Assembly (NCBI RefSeq): GCF_017751145.1
Contig: NZ_CP046640.1
Span: 1,964,137-2,028,136 of the forward strand
Direction of reading: 5' to 3'
Length of the DNA: 64,000 nucleotides
From: Iocasia fonsfrigidae
GTDB lineage: Bacteria > Bacillota > Halanaerobiia > Halanaerobiales > DTU029
Below the pieces are notes generated by a model. That model was not told the DNA's origin. It worked only from the letters and a program-made list of their open reading frames with translations, and did no database searches. The translations under genes and the position numbers were made by a program. Positions 25,812 through 30,821 of the stretch are shown in pieces (the stretch's first letter is position 1; each line of letters starts with the position of its first letter).

Positions 25812-26227
25812 ATGGGGAAAAAGGTGAGATGTAATCGTAGCTGTACTCTTATTCTATTTTTGCAAAAAATATCAAGTTTTATGAGAGGTTATCTGATATA
25901 CTGTTCTTTGCTTTCAACCTGGTTTAGGCTGGTATATGCTGCAATTTTTGGGGATTTATTAGTTAATCTTCTTGAAGTTTCACATATCTTAAGTAATCCT
26001 GTATATTTAAAAGCCTTTGGAGCAGAGCAACTTAATGCCCAGGTGATATTACTACTTAATACATTTAACAATGGATGGGATGTAAGTTTTCTAATCTTTG
26101 GTCTACATTTATTTGTCCTCGCTTAGTTGGTATTCTGGTAATAATTTTATCTACAGGATATTTAGTAGATTCCACTGGGAAAATTATTTGTTCTAATTAT
26201 AATCTGTCAGTTGCTATGTATACTTTT
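25812..26227 (+). pseudogene. DUF4386-type membrane protein remnant
   Basis: Frame one (25812-26126) reads AEQLNAQVILLLNTFNNGWD and ISFxIFGLHLFVL-like membrane sequence, then stops. A shift of frame continues as LVGILVIILSTGYLVDSTGK and NYNLSVAMYTF. Together these match the second half of DUF4386 proteins (LNxFxxGWxIxxIFFGLHLLLLGYL, then GILLIIAGLGYLIDS). The first third of the family is missing. The last helix runs straight into a sigma-factor sequence, so a deletion has joined two genes. Confidence 0.62.
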
Positions 26228-26980
26228 GCTATCCGGATGACCGGTAATATTCATGATGCTGAAGATATTACACAGGAAATATTAATAAAAATAATTACCA
26301 GACTGGCTACATTTAAAGGAGAGAGCAGTTTTCGTACCTGGTTGTACCGTATTGTCTCAAATTATGTTTTAAATATGAAGAGAAAGAAACAGGAATACCT
26401 TTTTCCATCATTTGAGGAACATAGAAAGTTACTGTTACATTCTCCTGACATGGAAGTAAATGATTTTTATGGTAGTGATATAGAGCAGAAGGTATTGATT
26501 AGAGAAACATAGATCCGCTGTCTCATGGGGATGATTCTTTGCCTTGACAGAAAACAGCGGCTAGCTTTTATTTTAGGGTCTATTTTTTCTACAAATTCAA
26601 AAATTGCTGGAGAAATAATAGGAATTAGTCCGGTATATTATCGAAAGTTATTATCAAGAGCCAGGAGCCAATTGAAGTCTTATTTAGATGGGAGGTGCAG
26701 CTTATTAAATAAAAATGGCAGTTGTAAATGTGTTCATAAGACTAATGCTGCTATCAAAGCTGGATATATCAATCCAGACAACTTACAATTTGAAGCAGGA
26801 TATGTAAAGAAAGTAAAGGATTTTGTAAAACAGTATTCCCGTGAGGCTGAAGAGACATTAACTATACGTTTTGAGCAATTATTTAAAGAACAACCATTCT
26901 GGGAATCCCCAGACTATAAAAAATTTCTAAATCAAAAGATTAAAACAATGGAAATGGCCTGGAGAAATTTAAATAAATAA
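26228..26980 (+). pseudogene. ECF-type sigma-70 factor, truncated and with an internal stop
   Basis: Region 2 of a sigma factor is clear (MTGNIHDAEDITQEILIKII, FKGESSFRTWLYRIVSNYVL), then an in-frame TAG at 26510, then region 4 (GMILCLDRKQRLAFILG, ISPVYYRKLLSRARSQL) and a cysteine-bearing tail (NGSCKCVHKTNAAIKAGYIN) typical of this group. The first ~20 codons have been replaced by the end of a DUF4386 protein. The truncation together with the nonsense codon makes it a pseudogene; a GTG or ATG restart could at best yield region 4 alone. Confidence 0.8.
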
Positions 26981-27211
26981 TTAAAGAAATCTAGTTATAA
27001 AACAATACTTTTTTTAGAAAAACAGATGGTTAATATGGAAACTGCTTACTGGCAGGGGGTTTACCAGTAGAAATCTCTAAAAGATCTTGACAAATATAAG
27101 TCATCATTTCTGCTTTATCTTATGAACAAACGGGCTGTAAATGGCCCGGTTTCATAAATTGCATAACATTAGAAATATTTTACTATGAATAAAGGGAGGA
27201 TAAAGAAAAGC

Positions 27212-27700
27212 ATGGACACTATTTTTACTTATTTCCTGTATATTCTAACAGCTATTTTATTAATCATATCATATAGAAAAGATAAAATAAAAACTAAACT
27301 GGCCTTAAAAAGGGCAAGGAAAATTTTTTTATCTGTTCTCCCACAACTCCTCTCCATCCTTTTTCTTGTTAGTTTTTTACTTGCAGTCTTTGACTCAGAA
27401 ACTATACAAAGTATTATTGGTGTAGAATCAGGTTTTAAAGGTATGATTCTTTCTTCAGTATTTGGAGCTATTGCTTTAATTCCAGTTTTAGTTGCTTTTC
27501 CTGTTGCTTCAGAATTAGTGAAGAATGGTGCAGGATTAATGCAAATAGCAGTTTTCATTTCTACACTTACCACGGTCGGCTTTGTGACAATACCTCTGGA
27601 AATTAAATTCTTAGGAAAAAAAGTTACCTTGTTGCGGAACTCTTTATTTTTTCTGTTTGCTTTTTTCGTAGCTTTTATCATTGGAGTGGTATTATCATGA
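27212..27700 (+). CDS. COG0701-type half-size permease, subunit 1
   Basis: 162 residues from ATG 27212; GGGAGGA (27194-27200) sits between it and a possible earlier ATG at 27185. Four or five membrane segments. It resembles one half of YraQ/DUF318 permeases: ILSSVFGAIALIPVLVAFPV and the ISTLTTVGFVTIPLE segment. It overlaps the next gene by four bases (ATGA), so the two halves are probably translated together and pair in the membrane, in place of the usual single ~300-residue protein. Substrate unknown; a metal or metalloid is often suggested for the family. Confidence 0.7.
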   Translation: MDTIFTYFLYILTAILLIISYRKDKIKTKLALKRARKIFLSVLPQLLSILFLVSFLLAVFDSETIQSIIGVESGFKGMILSSVFGAIALIPVLVAFPVASELVKNGAGLMQIAVFISTLTTVGFVTIPLEIKFLGKKVTLLRNSLFFLFAFFVAFIIGVVLS

Positions 27701-28230
27701 ACAAAATAATTAAAAAATATGTTTTTTTTCTTATTGTTGTAGCAATTAATCTGTTGACAATGTTTTTCTATCCACAGGTAGAAAAGGATACCCTGATTTT
27801 TACAGGTGAAAATTTCATCAACTTTTTGTTTATGCTGACACCTATTTTCATTTGTATTGGACTGTTAGATGTATGGGTAGATAGAGAGACTATGATAAAA
27901 ATTATGGGAGAGAAGTCAGGCCTTCCAGGTATTTTTGTAGCTTTCCTTTTAGGAGTGGCTACGGCAGTTCCTCTATATGCCTTATTTCCAGTCGCAGGAA
28001 TGATGTTGAAGAAAGGTAGTAAGATAACAAATGTCCTTATATTTATCTGTTCCTGTGCCAGTATCAGAATACCATTATTGCTTTTTGAAGTTTCCTCTAT
28101 GGGATGGAAATTTACTATAATAAGGTTTATCGTAAATATATTTGTGGTCATGATCATTGCTTTTATAATCGAAAAAGTATTAACAGAAAAAAACAAAAAG
28201 TCAATTTATGATAAAGCTAAAAATATGTAA
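27697..28230 (+). CDS. COG0701-type half-size permease, subunit 2
   Basis: 177 residues with five hydrophobic segments. The stretch GIFVAFLLGVATAVPLYALF repeats the motif of the upstream partner (GMILSSVFGAIALIPVLVAF), followed by CSCASIRIPLLLFE. The pair thus looks like the two repeats of a YraQ-type permease encoded as separate chains. Translation is coupled by the ATGA overlap. It ends before a convergent terminator shared with the small-gene cluster. Confidence 0.7.
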   Translation: MNKIIKKYVFFLIVVAINLLTMFFYPQVEKDTLIFTGENFINFLFMLTPIFICIGLLDVWVDRETMIKIMGEKSGLPGIFVAFLLGVATAVPLYALFPVAGMMLKKGSKITNVLIFICSCASIRIPLLLFEVSSMGWKFTIIRFIVNIFVVMIIAFIIEKVLTEKNKKSIYDKAKNM

Positions 28231-28282: not shown

Positions 28283-28328
28283 ATTAACCCATTTTAGAAT
28301 ATAAATATATACTAAAATGGGATTATTT
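28283..28328. terminator. Convergent bidirectional terminator
   Basis: Perfect 10-bp stem CCCATTTTAG (28288-28297) / CTAAAATGGG (28312-28321) extended by A/T pairs, lying between the plus-strand permeases and the minus-strand small-gene cluster. Confidence 0.7.
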
Positions 28329-28535
28329 TGAGTTACTAGAATTTATTATTTTAATTATATTGTATAAATCTTTTTTATTAATATGACAGTTTTCAAGTAA
28401 AGAATTTGTAAATTCCATAGGGTTAGCTGATGAATAAAAATCTTTGTTTTTTTCTATTTCTTTTAATATTTTTTTATATAACTTTAAATCATCGACTTCT
28501 AGAAGATCCTCATAATTTTTTATATTGTCTTTCAT
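28323..28535 (-). CDS. Small helical protein, last gene of the small-gene cluster
   Basis: 70 residues, not recognised. Predicted to be all helix (DDLKLYKKILKEIEKNKDFY, KKDLYNIIKIINSS), strongly charged, with one cysteine and no signal peptide. ATG lies behind AAAAAGGAG placed at the end of the preceding gene, so it is co-translated with it. It ends just inside the convergent terminator. Its position and size suggest an adaptor for the neighbouring beta-rich small proteins, but nothing in the sequence proves a role. Confidence 0.6.
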   Translation of the reverse strand: MKDNIKNYEDLLEVDDLKLYKKILKEIEKNKDFYSSANPMEFTNSLLENCHINKKDLYNIIKIINSSNSK

Positions 28536-28540
28536 TAATA

Positions 28541-28840
28541 TTACTCCTTTTTGTGTTTTACAATACCAAAAATAGATATACCAGGTTTAATTTCAATTAA
28601 TTCATATTCCTGGGCATTTATCCAGACATGACCTTTTTCATCCATATCAACTTCAAGTTCAGGTGCACCTTCTATTTTGAAATTTTCTAATCTATATGGG
28701 TCGATAAATATAAATACTGAATTGATCTGGTAGGCTGATATATCATTAACGTCTGTTAAATTGGCCTGGTTTGAAGCATTAATTAGAAATTTAGCAGAAG
28801 TATTTTCGATTGTATTACTATTTGACTTTTCCTTAACCAT
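28541..28840 (-). CDS. Small protein with NQxNL and GxVxINAQEY modules
   Basis: 99 residues from ATG 28840; an upstream GTG is part of the AAAGGGTG ribosome site. Unrecognised. It shares two modules with neighbours: an N-terminal NASNQANL...ISAYQINSVFIFID segment, like the genes at 28905 and 29767, and a C-terminal GHVWINAQEYELIEI, like GRVFIDAQEYDDND in the gene at 29452. It looks beta-rich, cytoplasmic and non-membrane. The INSVF segment is loosely reminiscent of GerP spore-coat permeability proteins; this is a hint, not an assignment. Confidence 0.6.
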   Translation of the reverse strand: MVKEKSNSNTIENTSAKFLINASNQANLTDVNDISAYQINSVFIFIDPYRLENFKIEGAPELEVDMDEKGHVWINAQEYELIEIKPGISIFGIVKHKKE

Positions 28841-28904
28841 GTAAATCACCCTTTTTATATAAATATTTAATAAACAAAAATAATTTAAAAAATTTAAAAA
28901 TATA

Positions 28905-29177
28905 TTATCCTTTAGTTATTTTTTTGTCAGTATATATATAGATATTATCGTCATTAATATTATTAACACCATTTATTTCTATTTCGCCTTCCTTATTCAA
29001 AAAGATGGAGATTAAAATTTCATCTAATGAAGGAGGCTCAACAGATGAATCTGATTGATTAAGAAAACCTAACCCTAAAATAGTACCAAGGTTGTATTGG
29101 CATAAAATGGTTTTATTGGCATTGCATAAGTTGCCCTGGTTGGAAAAATTAAGGGCTAGGTATTTTTTTTTATTCAT
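28905..29177 (-). CDS. Small protein with N-terminal SNQxNL module
   Basis: 90 residues, unrecognised. It opens with LALNFSNQGNLCNANKTILC, paralogous to LINASNQANLTDVNDISAYQ in the gene at 28541, followed by a glycine-rich hydrophobic stretch (GTILGLGFLNQ). The C-terminal half holds GEIEINGVNNINDDNIYIYT, an echo of the GxVxINAQEY strand of its neighbours. Two cysteines, no signal peptide. It starts six bases after the preceding gene, so it belongs to the same transcript. Confidence 0.6.
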   Translation of the reverse strand: MNKKKYLALNFSNQGNLCNANKTILCQYNLGTILGLGFLNQSDSSVEPPSLDEILISIFLNKEGEIEINGVNNINDDNIYIYTDKKITKG

Positions 29178-29183
29178 AGTAAA

Positions 29184-29432
29184 TCACTCCATGTAATTAT
29201 TAATAATTTTCTTTAATTTTTCTTCTTTTTGTTCTTTAGTTAAATTACTGTTGTGACCTATACTATAAAGTTGTTTCATTAAATCAAATGGGTTTATATT
29301 ACGAACATTGTTATTAATGGTTATCTTATAATCACCGGCCTTAACTATACTTTTGGGACTCCCTTTTTTTTTGTCTGAACTATTAAGACTATGGGTTCTA
29401 ACCCTACCATCATTAAGCTGATTTTGATTCAC
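29184..29432 (-). CDS. Small basic protein with C-terminal helix
   Basis: 82 residues from GTG 29432, behind GAGGATAGGGGG. Unrecognised. It has a lysine/serine-rich N terminus, a short beta segment (GDYKITINNNVRNINPFDLM) and a C-terminal amphipathic helix (SNLTKEQKEEKLKKIINNYM). It has no membrane segment. It lies between the two beta-module genes and is probably a structural or docking component of whatever they build. Confidence 0.55.
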   Translation of the reverse strand: MNQNQLNDGRVRTHSLNSSDKKKGSPKSIVKAGDYKITINNNVRNINPFDLMKQLYSIGHNSNLTKEQKEEKLKKIINNYME

Positions 29433-29451
29433 AATACTATCCCCCTATCCT

Positions 29452-29745
29452 CTAAAACTTGACTATCGTTTGTTCTTTTTTGTTTTGGTCAGCTATATCT
29501 TTTGCTATTTTACGCTCTCCAGGTTTAGAATCTTTTTGTAATTCTAGTAATCTCCTGGTATCTTCCCCCATATTAATATCACTATCTTTTTCCACAGAAA
29601 TACTAAAATTTCTATATTTAGGGTCATTATCATCATATTCTTGGGCATCAATAAATACTCTTCCCTCCCTGGTAATTCTGATAGAAGAAGGAACATCATT
29701 ATCTGCCTTTTTATTTAAGATCATAATCCAGTTTTTATTTAACAT
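29452..29745 (-). CDS. Small protein with GRVFIDAQEY module
   Basis: 97 residues, unrecognised. Its middle carries IRITREGRVFIDAQEYDDND, the same strand motif as GHVWINAQEYELIEI in the gene at 28541, followed by a long charged helical tail (EDTRRLLELQKDSKPGERKI). A start MLNKNWIMILNKK gives one hydrophobic strand, not a signal peptide. ATG follows TGGAGG, 21 bases after the upstream gene. Confidence 0.6.
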   Translation of the reverse strand: MLNKNWIMILNKKADNDVPSSIRITREGRVFIDAQEYDDNDPKYRNFSISVEKDSDINMGEDTRRLLELQKDSKPGERKIAKDIADQNKKEQTIVKF

Positions 29746-29766
29746 TTTTTATTCCTCCAATCTTTT

Positions 29767-29991
29767 TTAGTTATTAGAAACATTAATTTTAACTGTTGAA
29801 AAAGACTGAGTTATTACCGAATAAGCAGAGATAGTCATGTTAGATTGTTGATTATAGTTAATTTGATCTACTATATCTGATTGCATGAAAAGATCACTTG
29901 TATCTGTTTGTTTCTTTTGAATACTATTTTGCTCATCGGTGATACTATTCTTTTTTTCGGTCACATTATAACTATTATTTTGATCTGACAT
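29767..29991 (-). CDS. Small Asn/Gln/Ser-rich protein, first gene of the second unit
   Basis: 74 residues behind AGGAGG. It has a polar, disordered N terminus rich in N, Q, S and K, then INYNQQSNMTISAYSVITQ and SFSTVKINV, related to the NQxN...ISAYQINSVF module of the gene at 28541. Unrecognised. A hairpin at 30043-30070 separates it from the upstream three-gene unit, so it may start its own transcript. Confidence 0.58.
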   Translation of the reverse strand: MSDQNNSYNVTEKKNSITDEQNSIQKKQTDTSDLFMQSDIVDQINYNQQSNMTISAYSVITQSFSTVKINVSNN

Positions 29992-30042
29992 AAAAAAACC
30001 TCCTGTTAAAACATATTTATAGTATAGTTTGTAAATAAGTTA

Positions 30043-30070
30043 GGAGCCCCTTATGTTAAATAAGAGGCCC
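30043..30070 (-). terminator. Hairpin between the two small-gene units
   Basis: GGAGCCCCTTAT (30043-30054) pairs with ATAAGAGGCCC (30060-30070) using one or two G-T pairs. No T-run follows on the minus strand, so it may be a weak terminator or an mRNA-processing hairpin. Confidence 0.45.
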
Positions 30071-30080
30071 AAATTATTTA

Positions 30081-30245
30081 TTAGTGACAGTGATCTAATA
30101 ATTCATCATTATCCTGATTGGTAGAGAATCCAAACAAGGCTTCAAGTTCAATGAAGAATTGTACAGCAAAGGCTACCAATATTTGTTGTGCACTTTTATT
30201 TACAGCTTTTTGATTGATAACACTGGCTATAAATACATCACTCAT
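30081..30245 (-). CDS. 54-residue paralogue of the 61-residue hydrophobic protein
   Basis: ATG 30245 behind AAGGAGGT, stop at 30081. The core ASVINQKAVNKSAQQILVAF and the following hydrophobic FFIELEALFGF helix are almost identical to those of the protein at 30578, and the tail TNQDNDELLDHCH diverges. The nucleotide sequences are also very similar, so this is a recent duplication. The gene is shorter than most gene-finders accept. Function unknown; one long amphipathic helix capable of self-assembly is the main visible feature. Confidence 0.72.
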   Translation of the reverse strand: MSDVFIASVINQKAVNKSAQQILVAFAVQFFIELEALFGFSTNQDNDELLDHCH

Positions 30246-30284
30246 TATTTTCTTACCTCCTTTTTAAAAAGTCATGGATTTGGT

Positions 30285-30524
30285 CTAGATAAAATCATCA
30301 AATAGAGAACATAATATTGCTAGTTTCTTTTCTCTGCATTCTTCCTGATTAGCAGAAGACAGACATTCAATTGCATCAGAAGGTTTAATTATTTTGGGAT
30401 TAATTCCTGATTCAATACCATGACCTTCTACATCGATATTCAAAGGGTCTGCCATATCTATTCCTAACATATCATCCTTATTTGAATTTAACTTAATACC
30501 ATCCTTTTCAAGTTTGATTTTCAA
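30285..30524 (-). CDS. Small acidic protein between the two paralogues
   Basis: 79 residues from a TTG start at 30524, eight bases after AAAGGAG. Unrecognised. N-terminal beta-like MKIKLEKDGIKLNSN, a central acidic segment (DMADPLNIDVEGHGIESG), and a C-terminal stretch with three cysteines (ECLSSANQEECREKKLAILC). No signal peptide. It sits between the two near-identical hydrophobic proteins in one operon and may partner them. Confidence 0.58.
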   Translation of the reverse strand: MKIKLEKDGIKLNSNKDDMLGIDMADPLNIDVEGHGIESGINPKIIKPSDAIECLSSANQEECREKKLAILCSLFDDFI

Positions 30525-30577
30525 GGTTACTACTCCTTTCCATTATATTAATAGAATAATAGTTTTAAATTGATTAA

Positions 30578-30763
30578 CTAACAAACTAACTTATCATTAT
30601 CCTGATTAGTGGCAAATCCAAATAGGGCTTCAAGTTCAATAAAGAATTGTATAGCAAAGGCTACCAGTATTTGTTGTGCACTTTTATTTACAGCCTTTTG
30701 ATTAATGACACTGGCTACAAATACATCACCACATTTTCCAGTGATTTTACCGGGTTTTGTCAT
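30578..30763 (-). CDS. 61-residue hydrophobic-helix protein, first gene of the cluster
   Basis: ATG 30763 behind AGGAGG; a longer in-frame start at 30811 has no ribosome site and overlaps the promoter. Sequence: MTKPGKITGKCGDVFV, the shared core ASVINQKAVNKSAQQILVAF, then FIELEALFGFATNQDND and a C-terminal cysteine. The 54-residue gene at 30081 is its paralogue. It is too short and polar at the ends to be a transporter. The helix could pack into filaments or sheets. A candidate sigma-K promoter lies 31 bases upstream. Not recognised as any named family. Confidence 0.7.
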   Translation of the reverse strand: MTKPGKITGKCGDVFVASVINQKAVNKSAQQILVAFAIQFFIELEALFGFATNQDNDKLVC

Positions 30764-30793
30764 GTTTTTTCCTCCTATACTTAATTTTGCTAT

Positions 30794-30821
30794 TATATTA
30801 TGAAAGATCAATTAAATGTGT
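30794..30821 (-). promoter_or_regulatory. Candidate sigma-K promoter of the small-gene cluster
   Basis: On the minus strand AC, 17 bases, then CATAATATA fits the Bacillus sigma-K form AC-N16/17-CATANNNTA. It is placed about 30 bases before the first start codon. A TATAAT overlaps the same place but has no good -35 partner. The spacing match is seen; late mother-cell expression is inferred. Confidence 0.42.

Follow-up and report, generated by a model that had tools for sequence, protein, structure and literature searches.

An Ordered Cluster of Small-Protein Genes behind a Sigma-K-Like Promoter in Iocasia fonsfrigidae and Other Anaerobes: a Candidate Accessory Spore-Envelope Operon

Results

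Nine small, tightly packed genes on the minus strand

The window analyzed here is a stretch of 64,000 nucleotides (positions 1,964,137 to 2,028,136) of the single 3,926,493-base contig of Iocasia fonsfrigidae NS-1. Nine tightly packed ORFs lie on its minus strand, from position 30763 to 28323; they encode products of 54 to 99 amino acids, and each is preceded by a ribosome-binding site. From the first to the last transcribed, we named the genes A1, B, A2, C, D, E, F, G, and H (Table 1). For A1, we prefer ATG 30763 to TTG 30811 as the start. Judged by sequence conservation, the nine ORFs are real genes, far beyond chance, because their families recur in order in nine other genomes (see below). 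The nine-gene cluster proposed in a preliminary description of this DNA was thus real.

TABLE 1 Features of the cluster, with positions counted from the first nucleotide of the window
Feature	Position	Strand	Description
Sigma-K-like promoter	30794..30821	-	AC-N17-CATAATATA; some 30 bp ahead of the first ATG
Gene A1	30578..30763	-	61 aa; single long hydrophobic/amphipathic helix; motif ASVINQKxVNxxAQQxLxxxAxQ
Gene B	30285..30524	-	79 aa, TTG start; acidic; DPLN...GIES motif; C-terminal part common with E
Gene A2	30081..30245	-	54 aa; second A copy
Intercistronic hairpin, A/B block to C	30044..30070	-	Hairpin at this place in 10/10 loci
Gene C	29767..29991	-	74 aa; NxNQQSNMxLSAYSxITQSxSxVKIN
Gene D	29452..29745	-	97 aa; WIxI...GxVxIDGxxYD...GEET
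Gene E	29184..29432	-	82 aa, GTG start; distant paralogue of B
Gene F	28905..29177	-	90 aa; paralogue of G
Gene G	28541..28840	-	99 aa counted from ATG 28840; NASNQANL...QINS and GxVxI module
Gene H	28323..28535	-	70 aa; in Iocasia C-terminal part only
Hairpin after H	28288..28321	-	Common with the convergent plus-strand gene; probable operon end

According to calculated properties, none of the nine proteins has an N-terminal signal-like hydrophobic segment, in agreement with the signal peptides having been described as absent; the hydrophobic stretch of the A proteins is internal or C-terminal. Two near-identical hydrophobic-helix proteins had been said to flank an acidic Cys protein, and indeed A1 and A2 are 84% identical, and B, which sits between them, has a calculated pI of 4.6 and three Cys residues. 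Homologues of H mostly have an additional N-terminal Cys-rich (zinc-ribbon-like) part, for example in genome G809. Pfam and NCBIfam scans found no transporters or enzymes within the cluster.

The AF2 model of A is one helix of about 42 residues (core pLDDT, 84 to 94), the C-terminal half of which is strongly hydrophobic. SpoVM, which as a small amphipathic helix attaches the coat to the forespore, offers an analogy: A is likewise small, with one predicted hydrophobic/amphipathic helix, and is probably made in the mother cell, but it is about twice as long, is present in multiple copies, and carries an invariant NQK/QQ polar pattern. For G, an all-beta fold was predicted with low confidence (pLDDT, 59), and the model had no match in the PDB (best E = 0.58).

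At the hairpin after H, the terminator scan detected no classical terminator. Convergent with the cluster are two consecutive half-size genes for ArsP_1-type permeases (27185 to 28230). Farther along, two adjacent ORFs (26075 to 26980) resemble one broken sigma-70-type factor, with region 2 at 26075 to 26512 (Pfam match) and a region-4-like part at 26525 to 26980.

Kinship within the cluster and lack of database relatives

Profile comparison with hhalign revealed that F is homologous to G (E = 1.3e-9) and B to E (E = 4.6e-9), the latter a kinship that the preliminary description had missed. The motif G[HR]V[WF]I[ND]AQEY, assigned there to two proteins, was recovered as a module GxVxI[DN]xxxY common to D and G over 20 columns (E = 9.6e-5). 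Modules of the NQxN...ISAY type had been assigned to three proteins; this was borne out by the F-G homology but not for C, whose comparison with G was not significant (E = 0.025 over 12 columns).

Pfam, NCBIfam, and PHROGs gave no significant match for the cluster families, and the Rfam search had no hit; PDB sequence searches with the A, C, D, G, and H profiles returned chance or low-complexity matches only. Among the latter searches, the D profile hit designed "Pizza" beta-propellers, a candidate that we rejected since it rests on a 17-residue GxVYIDG stretch. As stated earlier for this locus, no named family can be assigned, and in the libraries that we searched, the protein families appear to be undescribed.

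Proteins that are this small and lack a known family might also be the remnant of a phage structural operon. We consider this exceedingly improbable: the PHROG search gave no significant match, and A has no relative in 2.9 million viral contigs, 50,697 phage records, or 72,556 plasmid records. This lack of matches essentially excludes a phage, plasmid, or viral origin. In addition, matches to phage structural or bacteriocin families, which had been named as evidence against a spore function, were not detected with PHROG, Pfam, or NCBIfam.

The gene block is conserved across distantly related anaerobes

In ten genomes, these families recur in an identical order (A, B, A, C, D, E, F, G, H); the carriers belong to the Halanaerobiales, relatives of Alkaliphilus, and two other lineages. 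Protein searches identified the first relatives in a Halanaerobiaceae metagenome genome, Halothermothrix orenii, and Alkaliphilus peptidifermentans; profile searches added further carriers (G142, G374, G345, G403, G348, and G809). In the shared layout, two or three A copies mixed with B are followed by C, D, E, F, G, and H and usually by an acidic gene, J. H and J are absent in H. orenii, and J is absent in Iocasia; the contig of the Halanaerobiaceae metagenome stops within D, and later genes are not visible there. Within each family, identity to the Iocasia protein is typically 25 to 60%. A match in an additional genome (G088) was discarded as a chance hit inside a 1027-aa frame. A tree of the concatenated families gave an AU value of 0.465 for monophyly of the Halanaerobiales, which fits either vertical descent or transfer.

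The G348 gene that takes the place of J (L041:3517-4107) encodes an N-terminal Se/S-carrier-like domain (Pfam) joined to a J-like acidic C-terminal tail, and a second gene of this type follows it.

A sigma-K-like promoter precedes the first gene at ten loci

A sigma-K-like promoter had been read upstream of A1 from the single Iocasia sequence, and the nine other loci provided an independent test of this reading. The element is present in Iocasia, and a putative promoter of its kind is conserved at the nine further loci. All loci (10/10) have the sequence CATANNNT[AG] no more than 100 bp from the first gene. At nine of them, a C stands 16 or 17 bases farther upstream, at the place of the sigma-K -35 element ([N]C-N16/17-CATANNNT[AG]), the -35 dinucleotide being AC in six of those nine. 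The exception, G809, has ATCAC and a spacer of 18. As controls, we used 84 upstream regions of other genes from the same sequences; 10 of them contained the -10 element and 6 the full pattern (Fisher p = 4e-8).

In Clostridioides difficile, sigma-E and sigma-K recognize the same -10 element, and the -35 element is ATA for sigma-E versus AC for sigma-K (PMC3789822). By this -35 rule, taken from C. difficile, sigma-K would be the better fit to the cluster promoter, because AC at -35 marks sigma-K rather than sigma-E; sigma-E would be the less likely alternative. A search of the Iocasia genome with the strict pattern TCAC-N17-CATANTATA gave two matches only, the second at a two-component locus.

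The promoter type also bears on whether the cluster encodes a multipeptide antimicrobial of the leaderless bacteriocin type or another vegetative secreted system. Short, hydrophobic, near-identical helical peptides in tandem would suit such a role, but the sigma-K-type promoters, the nine or ten co-conserved partners, the lack of a transporter or immunity gene alongside, and the lack of a bacteriocin family match in Pfam and NCBIfam make it highly improbable.

Similar promoter-like sites were seen near the cluster in two carriers. After the H. orenii cluster, a gene for a 280-aa protein with repeated LDTKIELEEDI segments and no family match (L010:8353-9195) has its own site, AC-N17-CATATATTG. 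Near the G348 cluster, there are two genes for Cys-rich proteins of unassigned family (L041:276-1238 and L041:2664-3170), the former with a sigma-K-like promoter site; that the two proteins resemble spore-surface proteins is an impression only.

A hairpin separates the A/B block from C to H

Between the A/B block and C, a hairpin was found at all ten loci (Iocasia and L003, L004, L010, L017, L038, L039, L040, L041, and L052), with energies of -14 to -31 kcal/mol versus a mean of -4.7 kcal/mol for the remaining gaps within the clusters (Mann-Whitney p = 7e-6). Its position is constant, and its stem sequences are unrelated among the ten loci. We interpret it as an attenuator or an RNA-processing/stability element; the label "terminator" is uncertain, because a clear T run follows the hairpin at roughly half of the loci only.

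A second CATANNNT[AG] element lies within this gap in H. orenii, G345, G403, and G348 (gaps of 123 to 322 bases), and in 3/4 cases it has a correctly spaced AC at -35. Since the hairpin stands at the block boundary and sigma-K-like elements occur in the gap, A and B are probably made in excess of C to H. In the simplest reading, C to H would be reached by read-through or from a second late promoter.

The cluster co-occurs with SpoIVA but is accessory

SpoIVA is the ATPase of the coat basement. It was detected in 9/9 carriers tested, G809 being outside this sample. The background frequency was 29/61 among relatives, where the carriers scored 3/3 (chance, 0.10), and 159/394 among genomes of the order of A. 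peptidifermentans, where they scored 5/5 (chance, 0.010). The combined value of about 1e-3, in which kinship among genomes is ignored, indicates a modest association. The expectation that sporulating relatives would retain the cluster was borne out only in part: it is missing from 26/29 SpoIVA-positive relatives and from 154/159 SpoIVA-positive genomes in the order of A. peptidifermentans. Since most SpoIVA-positive relatives do without it, the cluster is accessory and not a core spore layer.

I. fonsfrigidae NS-1 was described as endospore negative (PMC8652127), as was strain SP3-1, and H. orenii is an unproven spore former. An intact spoIVA gene is located in the Iocasia genome at G000:C1:2032254-2032961, about 4 kb past the window end. 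Organisms called nonsporulating, such as Iocasia, seem to retain intact late sporulation genes.

The genes flanking the cluster are mostly not spore genes. In G345, a gene for a Mn-catalase of the CotJC kind (Pfam Mn_catalase; L039:8716-9411) is located directly upstream on the same strand. The C. difficile coat proteins CotCB and CotD are sigma-K-dependent Mn-catalases (PMC3789822). Clostridial coat operons (CotJ type; CD0596-cotF-cotCB and CD2399-cotJB2-cotD in C. difficile) resemble the cluster in encoding small proteins under apparent sigma-K control and, in this one carrier, in the proximity of a Mn-catalase gene. They differ from it in that the nine families match no coat family and the catalase is not in the cluster elsewhere.

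Analogy to gerP without detectable homology

The preliminary description had suggested either a self-assembling spore layer or a GerP-like germinant-access complex. The gerP genes form a sigma-K-controlled operon for small, nonenzymatic proteins that affect coat permeability (PMC2817736), and the cluster is analogous in these respects. By this analogy, its products might form a permeability complex through which small germinants cross the coat, replacing gerPABCDEF. The putative sigma-K-type promoter ahead of the operon is as such a role would require, and searches for GerPB detected it in only 1/119 sampled genomes of the phylum and did not find it in Iocasia.

Homology searches did not support kinship. 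No protein matched the Pfam GerP families (GerPA/PF, GerPB, GerPC, and GerPE; E up to 1 to 10). When profiles were compared with five GerP modules, taken from the gerP operon of one sampled genome, A, B, and D to H scored at background; the best score was that of C (E = 0.005), in a noncorresponding register and reached by 3% of shuffles. GerP kinship thus found no support in the Pfam scans or the profile-profile comparison. The cluster and gerPABCDEF of Bacilli are alike in being operons for small nonenzymatic proteins without signal peptides, probably under mother-cell sigma-K control; they differ in gene number and order, in the internal hairpin of the cluster, and in its hosts, which are Halanaerobiales, Alkaliphilus relatives, and other anaerobes. 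Moreover, sporulating relatives mostly manage without the cluster. A GerP-like function therefore seems doubtful to us. What stands of the earlier suggestion is the spore-envelope role, which fits the conserved promoter, the presence of SpoIVA in 9/9 carriers tested, and the Mn-catalase gene in G345.

Discussion

We propose, as a reasonably probable explanation, that the cluster is an accessory late-sporulation operon of the mother cell whose products form a spore-envelope structure, with A and B as major components and with the hairpin lowering the expression of C to H. Transcription would start late in sporulation, in the mother cell, at the sigma-K-type promoter, and the small products would assemble without secretion on the forespore surface into a coat or outer-layer structure. 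A, with its one long hydrophobic helix and two or three tandem copies, would be the main constituent together with B. Past the A/B block, the hairpin would lower, without stopping it, transcription into C to H (and J) or the levels of their RNA, and in some genomes these genes might also be driven by their own sigma-K-like promoter. F, G, and D (G being predicted to be beta-rich), the B paralogue E, and H, which is Cys-rich in most genomes, would be minor components. The data show that the genes and their order are conserved, where promoter and hairpin lie, and that the cluster co-occurs with SpoIVA; the use of sigma-K, attenuation, assembly, a place on the spore, and any role in permeability are inferred.

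The same data bear on the proposal that the products constitute a cargo, a storage body, or a parasporal body, made in the mother cell outside the spore envelope and freed when the mother cell lyses. The conserved sigma-K-like promoter fits this proposal equally, and a surplus of one helical protein would suit a self-assembling body. The R-body (Reb) proteins are likewise small tandem paralogues, and A could self-assemble as they do; unlike them, however, none of 22 A proteins matched RebB (Pfam; E up to 1), and A has no Pfam match to any other described family. A toxin or enzyme component was not found in the cluster. We consider a body of this kind quite improbable.

Within the spore-envelope explanation, a more specific and rather unlikely possibility is that A polymerizes into an undescribed helical lattice or filament. 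In anaerobic Firmicutes, among them the diderm (outer-membrane) Halanaerobiales, this polymer would form an accessory layer or an appendage of the spore. B would be its partner, C to H and J would serve as minor scaffold, cap, or anchor, and the internal hairpin would set the stoichiometry.

Operons that the mother cell expresses late for small spore-envelope proteins are already known as a type of system; the families appear to be new. To our knowledge, spore coats in the carrier lineages are little described. The cluster comprises about seven protein families for which the databases have no model. Distantly related anaerobes keep them together in a single gene block with control elements of the late-sporulation type, and this block provides, by name and order, candidate components of an accessory spore structure.
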